From: an uncultured Pelagibacteraceae bacterium
GTDB taxonomy: Bacteria; Pseudomonadota; Alphaproteobacteria; Pelagibacterales; Pelagibacteraceae
Length of the DNA: 64,000 bases
NCBI GenBank assembly: GCA_902530635.1
Contig: CACABC010000003.1
Span: 49,185 to 113,184 of the forward strand
Direction: 5' to 3'
Part shown: in pieces, positions 32,099 to 61,400 of the stretch
Layout: each line of letters opens with the position of its first letter
Numbering within the stretch: position 1 is the stretch's first letter
Notes under the pieces: model-generated
Database searches by the model: none
The model's input: only the letters and a program-made list of their open reading frames with translations
Told to the model about the DNA's origin: nothing
Position numbers and translations under genes: made by a program

Positions 32099-32983
32099 AT
32101 GTTTAAAGGTTCAATTGTAGCTTTAATAACACCGTTCAAAAATAATGTTTTGGATCAAGATAAATATGCATCCTTAATTCATTATCACTTAAAAAACGGA
32201 ACAAAAGGAGTAGTTCCGGCAGGTACAACCGGTGAGTCACCAACATTGGATCATGAAGAACATAAAAAAGTTATAGAAATTTCAGTTAAAGAGTCCAACG
32301 GAAAGATACCGGTAATAGCTGGAACAGGATCTAATTCAACTTCCGAAGCTATCGAACTTTCAAAACATGCAGAAAAATCAGGAGCTAACGGATTATTAAT
32401 CGTAACTCCATACTACAACAAACCGACTCAAGAAGGTCTTTACCAACATTATAAAAAAATTAATGATAATGTCGGCATACCAATTATTATTTACAACATT
32501 CCACCAAGATCAGTAATTGATATGTCAGTTGATACTATGGCAAGACTTTTTGAATTAAAAAATATTGCTGGTGTCAAAGATGCTACTGCAGATCTTAATA
32601 GAGTTGATGAACAATTAAAAAAAATGGGTAAAGAATTTATTCAATTATCTGGCGAAGATGGAACAGCCTTAGAATTTAATCTTAGAGGAGGTACAGGATG
32701 TATAAGTGTTACTGCAAATGTAGCACCTAAACTTTGTTCTGAGTTTCAAGAAGCATCTTTAAGCAAAAATAATAGCAACTTACAGTCCAAAGCAAAAGAA
32801 ATTAATAATAAATTAATGCCATTACACAAAGCATTGTTTATAGAAAGTAATCCAAGTCCAGTAAAATATGCAGCAAGTTTATTAAATTTATCATCGGATG
32901 AAGTTAGATTGCCTTTAGTTAAAGTTACAGAAAATACAAAAAAACAAGTGCAGAAAGCATTAAAAATTGCCGAACTGCTTTAA
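32099..32983 (+). CDS. dapA: 4-hydroxy-tetrahydrodipicolinate synthase
   Basis: [13 protein letters not shown]...[14 protein letters not shown]...[17 protein letters not shown]...YNIPPRS. Confidence 0.97.
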
Positions 32984-57302: not shown

Positions 57303-58244
57303 TTGATAAATCCTGCTTTATTAAACAAATTTATTACAGTCTCTGAGAGAGCAGCTTATGGTGCATCAAAATACATAGGAAAAAATGATAAAAAATCAGC
57401 AGATCAAGCTGCAGTTGATGAAATGAGATCAGAGCTTAATAAAATTGAAATGAATGGAAAAGTTGTAATAGGAGAAGGCGAAATGGACGAAGCACCAATG
57501 TTATTTATTGGAGAAAAAATTGGAACTGGTACTGGTGATGATTTAGAAATCGCAGTTGATCCATTAGAGGGTACAAATTTTGTAGCAAAAAATTTACCAA
57601 ATGCCATATCTGTATTATCAGTTGCGAACAAGGGCAGTATACTATCCGCCCCAGACACCTATATGGAAAAGATTGCTGTTGGTTCAGGATTACCGCCTAA
57701 TCTAATTGATCTAGACAATTCAGTTGAAAAAAATATTAAATTACTAGCAGATGCAAAGAATAAAAAAATTCACCAAATTACTGCTTGTATTCTTAAAAGG
57801 CCACGTCATGATAAAATTATTTCAATTTTAAACTCATTAAATGTTAAAATTAATTTCATTCAAGATGGTGATGTTACCGGTGTAATTTCCGTTGTAGACA
57901 AAAATTCCCCTATAGATATTTATTTAGGTGTTGGTGGAGGCCCAGAAGGTGTTTTGGCAGCTTCCGCATTAGCATGTTTGGGTGGACAGATGCAAACTAG
58001 ATTGGTTCTTAATAATCAAAATGAAATTAATAGAGCAAAAAAATTAGGTATTAACGATCTATCTAAAAAATATAACATCGAAGATATGGTAAGTGGGGAT
58101 GTAATTTTTTGTGCAACTGGAGTTACAGACGGAGAAATGTTGAAAGGTATTAAGGACAGGGGAGATTCGTTCGAAGCTTCGTCTTATGTTTTGCATAAAA
58201 ATCTAAAAGTTTCTAAAAAAATTACTAATTTAATTAAAAAATGA
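57303..58244 (+). CDS. glpX: Class II fructose-1,6-bisphosphatase GlpX (TTG start)
   Basis: KKSADQAAVDEMRSELNKIEMNGKVVIGEGEMDEAPMLFIGEKIGTG...EIAVDPLEGTN. Confidence 0.96.
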   Translation: MINPALLNKFITVSERAAYGASKYIGKNDKKSADQAAVDEMRSELNKIEMNGKVVIGEGEMDEAPMLFIGEKIGTGTGDDLEIAVDPLEGTNFVAKNLPNAISVLSVANKGSILSAPDTYMEKIAVGSGLPPNLIDLDNSVEKNIKLLADAKNKKIHQITACILKRPRHDKIISILNSLNVKINFIQDGDVTGVISVVDKNSPIDIYLGVGGGPEGVLAASALACLGGQMQTRLVLNNQNEINRAKKLGINDLSKKYNIEDMVSGDVIFCATGVTDGEMLKGIKDRGDSFEASSYVLHKNLKVSKKITNLIKK

Positions 58245-60025
58245 ATATCAACTCGGTTTTAGGAAAAAATTGGACTCCTAAAAACTACAATGAAGAAACT
58301 GTCAAATTTTTAAAAGAAAACTTTAACCTCAGTGAAATTGTTGCAAGATTAATTGCAATTAGAAAAATTAAAATTGAAGATGTTAATATTTTCTTAAAAC
58401 CAAAAATTAAAAATTTATTACCAAATCCATTTATTTTAAAAGATATGGACAAAGCAGTTAACAGGACTTTCCAAGCAATAATTAATAAAGAAATAGCAGG
58501 AATTTTTGGTGATTATGATGTTGATGGAGCAACATCAACAGCAATACTTGGAAATTATTTTAATGAAATTAATCATGAAATTAAAATTTACATTCCAGAT
58601 AGAAAAATAGAAGGATATGGCCCTAGTATTAATGGTTTTGAAAAACTAATATCTCAAGGGGCTAAATTAATTTTTACTGTAGATTGTGGAACCTTATCTT
58701 TTGAAACAATTGAATTTTTCAAAAAAAAAAATACTGATGTTTTAGTTTTCGACCATCATCAATCGGAATTAAAATTACCAAATGCTGTAAGCATTGTGAA
58801 TCCAAATCGTTTTGATGACGAATCAAAACTTAATTATTTATGTGCAGCTGGTGTTTGTCTGATGTTTTTAATAGCTTTAAACAAAAAATTACGAGAATCA
58901 AATTGGTTTGATAATAATAATATTAAAGAACCCAATTTAATTAATTATCTTGATTTAGTTTCTTTAGGAACAGTATGTGATGTTGTGCCATTAATTGGTT
59001 TAAATAGAGCGATTGTTAGTCAGGGTTTAAAAGTCTTTAAAAAAAAATCAAATTTAGGTTTAAACATCTTAAAAAATATATGTGGTATAGAAACAAATAT
59101 TACCACTTATCATCTTGGTTATATTTTAGGACCAAGAATAAATGCTGGTGGTAGGGTTGGAAAAAGTTCTCATGGTGCGAATTTATTATTAAGCAAGAAT
59201 TCTAAAGAAATTTTTAAAATTGCAAGTGAGCTTGACTCATTTAATAAAAAGAGAAAATTAATTGAAACTCAAATGCTTAACAATATCGAAAGTAAGGTTA
59301 AAAATAACGCTAATGAACCAGTAATTGTTTTGTCAGGACATAATTTGCATGGTGGAGTTATTGGAATTATTGCTGCAAGGATTAAAGACAAATATAATAA
59401 ACCAACAATTGTAATTTCAGTTGAAAAGGGCCTAGGTCGTGCATCTGCTAGGTCTGTATTAGGTTTTGATATAGGTAAAATTATTTTAAATGCAATAGAA
59501 AAAAATATCCTCAAAAAAGGTGGTGGTCATAAAATGGCAGGAGGTTTTACTATTGAAGAAAATAAAATCTTTGAGTTTAAAGAATATATAAATAATAAAT
59601 TTTCAAAAGTTTTAAAAAGTATAGACAAAAATGACATTCTTTCTTTTGACTCAAAAATATCTGCATCAGCATTAAATGAAGATTTTTACTCAGAAGTTAA
59701 TACATTGTCACCATTCGGTTCTGGTAATCCAGAGCCCAGATTTGTTATTGAAAATTTAGAATTATTAAAATCCTCAATCGTTGGTGATAGACATATAAAA
59801 TCAATCTTTGTTGCCTCAGATGGATCAGTTGTCAAAAGCGTGACATTTAATGCAGTAAAAAGTAATTTAGAAAGCTATTTATTATCAAAAAAACGTAAAA
59901 AAATTAATATTGTTGGAAAAATTAGTCTTAATGAATGGAAGGGTGAAAAAAATGTAGAGTTTATTATCGATGATATTTCTGTTAATAAGACAATCAATAA
60001 TTCGGTCCCATCGTCTAACGGTTAG
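58241..60025 (+). CDS. recJ: Single-stranded-DNA-specific exonuclease RecJ
   Basis: IFGDYDVDGATSTAILGNYF...VFDHHQSE...GGRVGKSSHGANLLLS...KKGGGHKMAGGFTIEE; stop inside tRNA-Glu. Confidence 0.96.
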   Translation: MNINSVLGKNWTPKNYNEETVKFLKENFNLSEIVARLIAIRKIKIEDVNIFLKPKIKNLLPNPFILKDMDKAVNRTFQAIINKEIAGIFGDYDVDGATSTAILGNYFNEINHEIKIYIPDRKIEGYGPSINGFEKLISQGAKLIFTVDCGTLSFETIEFFKKKNTDVLVFDHHQSELKLPNAVSIVNPNRFDDESKLNYLCAAGVCLMFLIALNKKLRESNWFDNNNIKEPNLINYLDLVSLGTVCDVVPLIGLNRAIVSQGLKVFKKKSNLGLNILKNICGIETNITTYHLGYILGPRINAGGRVGKSSHGANLLLSKNSKEIFKIASELDSFNKKRKLIETQMLNNIESKVKNNANEPVIVLSGHNLHGGVIGIIAARIKDKYNKPTIVISVEKGLGRASARSVLGFDIGKIILNAIEKNILKKGGGHKMAGGFTIEENKIFEFKEYINNKFSKVLKSIDKNDILSFDSKISASALNEDFYSEVNTLSPFGSGNPEPRFVIENLELLKSSIVGDRHIKSIFVASDGSVVKSVTFNAVKSNLESYLLSKKRKKINIVGKISLNEWKGEKNVEFIIDDISVNKTINNSVPSSNG

Positions 60026-60078
60026 GACAGATGGTTTTCAATCATCTAATCGGGGTTCGATTCCCCGTGGGACCGCCA
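60004..60078 (+). tRNA. tRNA-Glu(UUC), CCA encoded
   Basis: GGTCCCA...TGGGACC acceptor, anticodon loop TTTTCAA (TTC), T-arm CGGGGTTCGATTCCCCG, 3' GCCA. Confidence 0.96.
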
Positions 60079-60113
60079 TAAATTTTTATATTTTCTATTG
60101 TATTTTTAAGCAA

Positions 60114-61400
60114 TTAATTTTTTTTAGTTTTATAAGAAAGACTAATAATTATAGCCAATAATAAAAAAATGATGGTTGCATTATTTGTTGTAAAAAAACT
60201 ACCGGAAGCACGTATTGGAAAAACCTCTACTATAAATACATAAAAAAATGGAGAAAGAATATATTTTATTTTTTCATTTTTAAGAGCAATAAAAGATTTT
60301 TTTATAGACAATATTATAATTGATAGGAATAAAATCAAACCTACCGCACCCAGATCAGATAAAATTTCTAAATAATAATTGTGTGGATGAATATTACAGG
60401 TGGTTCTTACATTAATCGATTCTATTTTCCTTTTTGGACAATTGTATCTAAAAGATTTTAAGCCACCACCTATATATTTATTGAGTTGCCATGTAGAAAA
60501 ACCTGACTCAAATTCATGAAGATAAGTATGTTTATTTTCATAAGGTATATCATTATCTGAACCTAACAATTCATTATAATAAGATGATAATATATTTTTA
60601 GAAGCTTGATAAAAACCTTTATAATAAGTTTTTATTGGCTCGTTTACACTAAACACTAATGTCACTATTATTAAAACTGTTAAAAATATATGAAGTATAT
60701 ATTTTTTTAGAGTGTTGGTATTTAAAAATACAAGAAATATTCCAAAAAGAAAAAGCAATAAAGACATTCTGTTACCTGAAAAAATAATAGATAAAATCGT
60801 TACTAAGAATAATAAAGTCAATATTAATATTTTAATTCTAGTATCATTAATTTTTATTAGAAGCATAAAACCAAAAAAAAGAAAAAAAGAAAACTTTTGA
60901 ATAAAACCTCCAGCAATTGCCTCTGTGTTAAAGGGTCCTGTTAATTTGTTTGTTAATGGACTAGTAAAACCAAATAGGTCTTTACCATTAAAAAATTGGA
61001 ATATTATATCTATACTTACAAATAATGATAATAATCCAAATAAGTAAAATAAAAATTTATAGTTAATTTGCTCTTTATCGGTTATTAATCTTATTGCAAA
61101 ATATAAAAATATATATCTTAAAAAAAGCAAGCTTTTATAAATTATTGTCAAATCTTTATTCTGTGTATATCCAAAAAAATAAGATTCTGTTGTATTCCAT
61201 AATCCAGTCATGATTATATACAAAAAAGCAAATATCATTAATTTATCAACGATATTGAATTTTAACCTTTCTCCTTTGTTATAAAGAAAAAAACCTGCGA
61301 GGATAATTATAAAAACATTTAAATTTAATATAAAATTACCAAGAATGTAGCTCAACGGTATGAAGGAAATTAAACCAGTTAAAATATTTTGTTTTGACAC
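60114..61400 (-). CDS. O-antigen ligase family (Wzy_C) membrane protein
   Basis: Multi-TM; FSGNRMSLLLFLFGIFLVF and periplasmic NIHPHNYYLEILSDLGAVGLILFLSII. Confidence 0.82.
   Translation of the reverse strand: MSKQNILTGLISFIPLSYILGNFILNLNVFIIILAGFFLYNKGERLKFNIVDKLMIFAFLYIIMTGLWNTTESYFFGYTQNKDLTIIYKSLLFLRYIFLYFAIRLITDKEQINYKFLFYLFGLLSLFVSIDIIFQFFNGKDLFGFTSPLTNKLTGPFNTEAIAGGFIQKFSFFLFFGFMLLIKINDTRIKILILTLLFLVTILSIIFSGNRMSLLLFLFGIFLVFLNTNTLKKYILHIFLTVLIIVTLVFSVNEPIKTYYKGFYQASKNILSSYYNELLGSDNDIPYENKHTYLHEFESGFSTWQLNKYIGGGLKSFRYNCPKRKIESINVRTTCNIHPHNYYLEILSDLGAVGLILFLSIIILSIKKSFIALKNEKIKYILSPFFYVFIVEVFPIRASGSFFTTNNATIIFLLLAIIISLSYKTKKN

Follow-up and report, generated by a model that had tools for sequence, protein, structure and literature searches.

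Why does a recJ coding sequence run into the tRNA gene that follows it and stop there, and does this arrangement serve regulation? The question is raised by one junction in the window, the whole stretch of 64,000 nucleotides analyzed here, which belongs to a 985-kb draft genome; the named relatives closest to it are Pelagibacteraceae (SAR11) single-cell genomes. The features that define the junction are as follows.

57303 to 58244, plus strand: glpX, class II fructose-bisphosphatase, directly 5′ of recJ (TIGR00330, 315.7 bits)
58241 to 60025, plus strand: recJ, single-stranded-DNA-specific exonuclease, 594 amino acids (ORF list, TIGR00644, Pfam)
60004 to 60078, plus strand: tRNA-Glu, anticodon UUC, CCA encoded (ARAGORN, Rfam, cloverleaf energy)
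60004 to 60025, plus strand: overlap of recJ and tRNA-Glu, 22 nt, in which recJ ..(TC)G VPSSNG stop equals tRNA nt 1-22 (reading frame and ARAGORN)
60023 to 60025, plus strand: recJ stop codon TAG, equal to tRNA-Glu nt 20-22 in the D-arm and including the conserved D-loop A

Both genes are well identified. RecJ scores 531 bits against TIGR00644, compared to a curated cut-off of 396.9, and its Pfam domains DHH, DHHA1, and RecJ_OB all lie above the gathering score; it is the last gene of the order hom-glpX-recJ, all on the same strand, with the glpX stop and the recJ ATG overlapping as ATGA. The tRNA has a cloverleaf (folding energy z = −3.0), a UUC anticodon, a CCA end, and A21 in the D-loop (D-arm ..GGTTAGG..), and it is also matched by Rfam RF00005 at the same location with 61.5 bits. 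The recJ frame reads AAT AAT TCG GTC CCA TCG TCT AAC GGT TAG up to 60025, and the protein accordingly ends in ...NNSVPSSNG* in the ORF list. The 22 shared nucleotides and the D-arm stop that a preliminary description had reported are thus confirmed by the frame, the ORF list, and ARAGORN. As in selB-selC-type overlaps, the upstream gene enters a same-strand tRNA in frame and stops within it; the part of tRNA-Glu inside recJ is limited to nt 1-22 and does not extend to the whole tRNA. Among the roughly 30 tRNAs of the genome, tRNA-Glu alone is overlapped by a long ORF, the tRNA-Gly gene being crossed by one 84-amino-acid ORF of doubtful reality. Elsewhere in the same genome (L239), the TAA of a 487-amino-acid ORF lies immediately 5′ of tRNA-Ser(GGA) with a spacer of zero, which may represent an earlier stage of a like compaction. 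On the other side of tRNA-Glu, the window carries a minus-strand O-antigen ligase-like gene (60079-61400, Pfam Wzy_C), and the DNA 3′ of the tRNA is unlike between relatives (L002-L035), a pattern which suggests that tRNA-Glu marks the start of a variable surface-glycan region.

We gathered recJ 3′ ends from SAR11-type relatives and condensed them to a set of 139 distinct junctions with tRNA-Glu directly adjoining recJ. The stop is the D-arm TAG, with an identical 22-nt overlap, in 116 of the 139, and this overlap is kept down to about 50 to 60% RecJ identity. Ten further junctions use a stop TA|G that borrows the first G of the tRNA, one uses a TAA at tRNA nt 13-15, and in the remaining 12 the stop lies wholly before the tRNA; eight of these 12 have a TAA or TGA right at the boundary after a one-base insertion, which would otherwise shift the D-arm TAG out of the recJ frame. 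The only relative without TAG at nt 20-22 (L024, D-loop GGTCAGG) has its own recJ TAA 11 nt upstream of tRNA-Glu. In none of the 139 junctions does recJ read through the entire tRNA. A sequencing or assembly error that erased a true recJ stop, which the draft genome taken alone would have allowed, is ruled out as the source of the overlap, the chance of such an artifact being practically nil, since genomes assembled independently of one another supply the 116 distinct junctions with this frame and overlap. On this comparative evidence, the overlap is old and real, because it is conserved across the junctions of relatives. The preliminary description had counted recJ stops upstream of the tRNA in relatives against its reading; such stops do occur, in the 12 junctions mentioned and in all outgroup genera, while the majority of abutting junctions overlap. 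As a separate observation, several genomes of genus g3 (e.g., G003, G043, G063, G069, and G083), which are nearly complete and in some cases single-contig, have no RecJ match by protein or by TIGR00644, while other genomes of this genus do, so that recJ would seem either to have disappeared more than once there or to have diverged past detection.

The outgroups indicate how the overlap came about. The spacer between recJ and tRNA-Glu measures 36 to 78 nt in the sister family f2 and in genera g3, g5, g9, and g12, where it often holds a TTGATT-like hexamer; it is shorter in g7 (14 nt), g6 (10 to 11 nt), g13 (6 nt), and g10 (3 nt), and the overlap itself is seen in g8, g1, and g4. In genus g2, at least one gene lies between recJ and tRNA-Glu, and the region upstream of the tRNA is AT-rich and of other sequence (TTGATCATTGAAAC...TATATAATAAATAC). 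Because the outgroups have 36 to 78 nt, the intermediate genera 3 to 14 nt, and the others an overlap, the series shows a stepwise erosion of the spacer, with the recJ stop first still before tRNA-Glu and later inside it.

The last codons of recJ carry an unusual constraint at the following positions.

59951 to 59989, plus strand: synonymously frozen block AATGTAGAGTTTATTATCGATGATATTTCTGTTAATAAG, positions −53 to −15 relative to tRNA-Glu (codon-level conservation; retention in G052)
59990 to 60003, plus strand: variable recJ tail, 14 nt, between the frozen block and tRNA-Glu

Mean excess codon homozygosity in the block (codons AAT GTA GAG TTT ATT ATC GAT GAT ATT TCT GTT AAT AAG) is 0.35, compared to 0.035 (standard deviation, 0.075) elsewhere in the C-terminal half of recJ, where the highest 10-codon window outside the block reaches 0.10. 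TTT, TCT, and GTT are each invariant in 139/139 junctions, as is GAG in the 138/138 that encode Glu. In the 14 relatives without an abutting tRNA-Glu, the same codons vary freely, TCT being found in just four. A 28-mer from this region, GAGTTTATTATCGATGATATTTCTGTTA, occurs with up to two mismatches in 135 of 397 family genomes, limited to genera g1 and g4 and with one copy per genome except in G052; its reversed control gave zero matches in the 397 genomes. Between TCTGTT and the tRNA, 127 of the 139 junctions have a tail of 20 nt, whose sequence varies.

The exception, G052, separates the two genes. Here (L093/L250), a 254-amino-acid ORF lies between recJ and tRNA-Glu, and recJ ends in ...ISVRSA* out of contact with the tRNA, while a decayed recJ 3′ fragment with several stops and changed codons adjoins tRNA-Glu. 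This fragment retains GTAGAGTTTATTATCGATGATATTTCTGTTAATAAGAC exactly, at the usual distance from the tRNA, a survival for which coding cannot account and service to tRNA-Glu can. This evidence comes from one genome only, and most of the block persists in its true recJ copy as well, so that the duplication may be of fairly recent date. The junction, with its duplicated recJ 3′ end, looks as if it were an insertion site. With synonymous constraint, absence where the tRNA is absent, and retention beside the tRNA after the split from recJ, the comparison shows, at the level of sequence, that the block carries a non-coding constraint.

We read this constraint as a promoter, because the synonymous sites are frozen, the block is absent without an abutting tRNA, and it is the sole part left intact beside the tRNA in G052. 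Within it, position-wise conservation and spacing—and nothing beyond these two—point to the following elements.

59960 to 59965, plus strand: candidate −35 element TTTATT, within the most constrained left box GAGTTTATT (59957-59965), proposed from position-wise conservation
59980 to 59988, plus strand: candidate extended −10 element TGTTAATAA (TGT + TAATAA), proposed from TCT GTT being invariant in 139/139 junctions

The block consists of two frozen boxes, GAGTTTATT and TTCTGTTA[A/T]TAA, with a looser middle between them: the varying third positions sit mid-block (−36 to −27), between boxes 17 nt apart, which is also the spacing from TTTATT to TAATAA. The second box has a TG in front of it, which is the pattern of extended −10 elements, and transcription would start about 8 to 9 nt before tRNA-Glu. 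The hexamers match the σ70 consensus poorly (TTTATT is a weak match to TTGACA, and TAATAA is a weak match to TATAAT), a plus-strand consensus scan found no 9-of-12 site in the block, and a two-box model built from 28 upstream regions of other tRNAs in the genome did not pick the block (P = 0.21), preferring a different weak site. This weak match would suit another reading, namely, that the block belongs to the 5′ leader of the tRNA precursor and directs a processing enzyme such as RNase P, or else that it is bound by another DNA-binding protein; the block does follow tRNA-Glu and not recJ, and its center forms an imperfect palindrome, ATTATCGATGAT. Against this stand the lack of RNA structure in the block (folding z = +0.68 and +1.42), which argues for a DNA element, and the distribution of the constraint, with the 14 nt beside tRNA-Glu varying while −53 to −15 are frozen and with the palindrome falling in the looser 17-nt middle that the frozen boxes flank. 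A variable 14-nt stretch and two boxes around a looser middle are more to be expected of a promoter than of a palindromic site or a leader, and we consider the leader or binding-site reading very unlikely. We take the block at 59951-59989 to be, most likely, the promoter of tRNA-Glu, situated within recJ. The preliminary description had named a tRNA promoter inside recJ, together with separate termination of recJ mRNA, as what would speak against its regulatory proposal; the strongly constrained, promoter-like block directly 5′ of the tRNA bears this out to some degree.

That proposal was that recJ and tRNA-Glu share a transcript, that RNase P, by cutting at the 5′ end of the tRNA, leaves a non-stop recJ mRNA for rescue by tmRNA, and that RecJ synthesis and tRNA maturation are therefore mutually exclusive. 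Part of it agrees with our data: cleavage would remove or split the recJ stop in 127 of the 139 junctions (116 D-arm, 10 TA|G, and one at nt 13-15), the arrangement is old and widespread, an α-type tmRNA is present in the genome, and a SmpB-like ORF, judged by eye, does start at 32983, where smpB had been placed. The same hypothesis has also been published for tRNA-Sec/selB (PMC8124441). The mutual exclusion itself, however, is weakened. With a promoter-like block inside recJ, probably serving tRNA-Glu as its own promoter, mature tRNA-Glu need not derive from the recJ transcript. Moreover, the stop moves repeatedly among the D-arm, TA|G, a TAA just before the tRNA, and sites further upstream: 14 changes of the D-arm stop label are counted on the tree (13 when abutting junctions alone are considered). 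At least seven of the 14 are forced by well-supported branches, and this is the count on which we rely, given that the tree (FastTree, about 290 columns) has many weak branches. Selection against recJ-frame stops ahead of the tRNA was also considered and rejected: 8 of 80 distinct 20-nt tails carry such a stop, column shuffles predict 11.1 (P = 0.14), and stops in another frame are equally low (6), so that avoidance is not specific to the recJ frame. A labile stop position and the lack of stop avoidance are as expected of a neutral by-product. We therefore regard the exclusive switch as quite unlikely, together with its proposed consequence, in which RNase P would remove the stop from recJ read-through mRNA as it matures tRNA-Glu and tmRNA tagging would limit RecJ in step with tRNA maturation. 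In our preferred reading, the overlap is a by-product that is tolerated and that would itself have no regulatory role.

Taken together, the overlap is probably a product of genome compaction, with the tRNA-Glu promoter inside recJ and the recJ stop drawn from the fused frame. In the ancestor, recJ would have stopped 36 to 78 nt before tRNA-Glu, with the tRNA promoter within the spacer. As the spacer was lost in this SAR11-type lineage, the promoter would have shifted into the 3′-terminal codons of recJ (59951-59989), and translation of recJ would have come to end at the first stop met in the fused reading frame, usually the TAG at nt 20-22, which the tRNA D-arm needs anyway. At present, tRNA-Glu would be made mainly from its own promoter in recJ, starting some 8 to 9 nt before the tRNA, and recJ would be translated from a hom-glpX-recJ transcript, its VPSSNG/VPSSIG tail being meaningless. 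For genome streamlining, the locus would provide a dated, stepwise example of neighboring genes becoming fused, in which a spacer shrinks, a promoter is absorbed upstream, and a tRNA structure supplies the stop. Provided that the block is a promoter, a single short DNA stretch is both protein code and promoter, and the adjoining stretch is protein code, stop signal, and tRNA at once. The locus is also a caution that gene ends overlapping tRNAs, which annotation pipelines tend to trim, can be real. Should the switch be true after all, a bacterial group that ranks among the most abundant in the ocean would couple its RecJ output to the maturation of a tRNA.

Promoters within the 3′ end of an upstream coding gene are a general phenomenon, and here, as there, a promoter in the upstream coding sequence would constrain its codons; the recJ case differs in that the constraint is seen at the nucleotide level in 139 junctions and in that the downstream gene also supplies the stop. 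We did not find the recJ/tRNA-Glu locus in the open-licence literature on SAR11 transcription starts and on bacterial overlaps of tRNA and coding genes, an absence that is no proof. In compact animal mitochondria, tRNAs also overlap protein genes, as with the tRNA-Lys inside cox1 of Armadillidium vulgare (cited in PMC8124441). These cases share with ours the compact genome, the shared nucleotides, and a processing that would truncate the mRNA. However, mitochondrial tRNAs are processed from long polycistronic RNAs, whereas a separate tRNA promoter is indicated here, and in recJ the stop codon is encoded within the tRNA.

The closest known system is tRNA-Sec (selC), which is nested in or overlaps selB in Alphaproteobacteria, Gammaproteobacteria, and Nitrospirae, according to the account in Mukai 2021 (PMC8124441). 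In Dyella and Luteibacter, the selB stop lies inside tRNA-Sec at conserved nt 46-48, and in related strains it lies just before the tRNA. In both systems, an ORF continues into the same-strand tRNA downstream, part of which is thereby translated. The partners differ, being tRNA-Sec and selB there but a canonical tRNA-Glu and the unrelated recJ here, with only nt 1-22 translated, and the recJ end carries a frozen promoter-like block, of which none is reported for forward selB overlaps in the material of PMC8124441 available to us. The RNase P/non-stop mRNA idea was offered for selB as an untested hypothesis. In the streamlined genomes that carry the recJ/tRNA-Glu junction, unlike in the selB/selC case, compaction is a sufficient cause, and we suggest that the proposal of a non-stop switch in selB should likewise face this simpler explanation.
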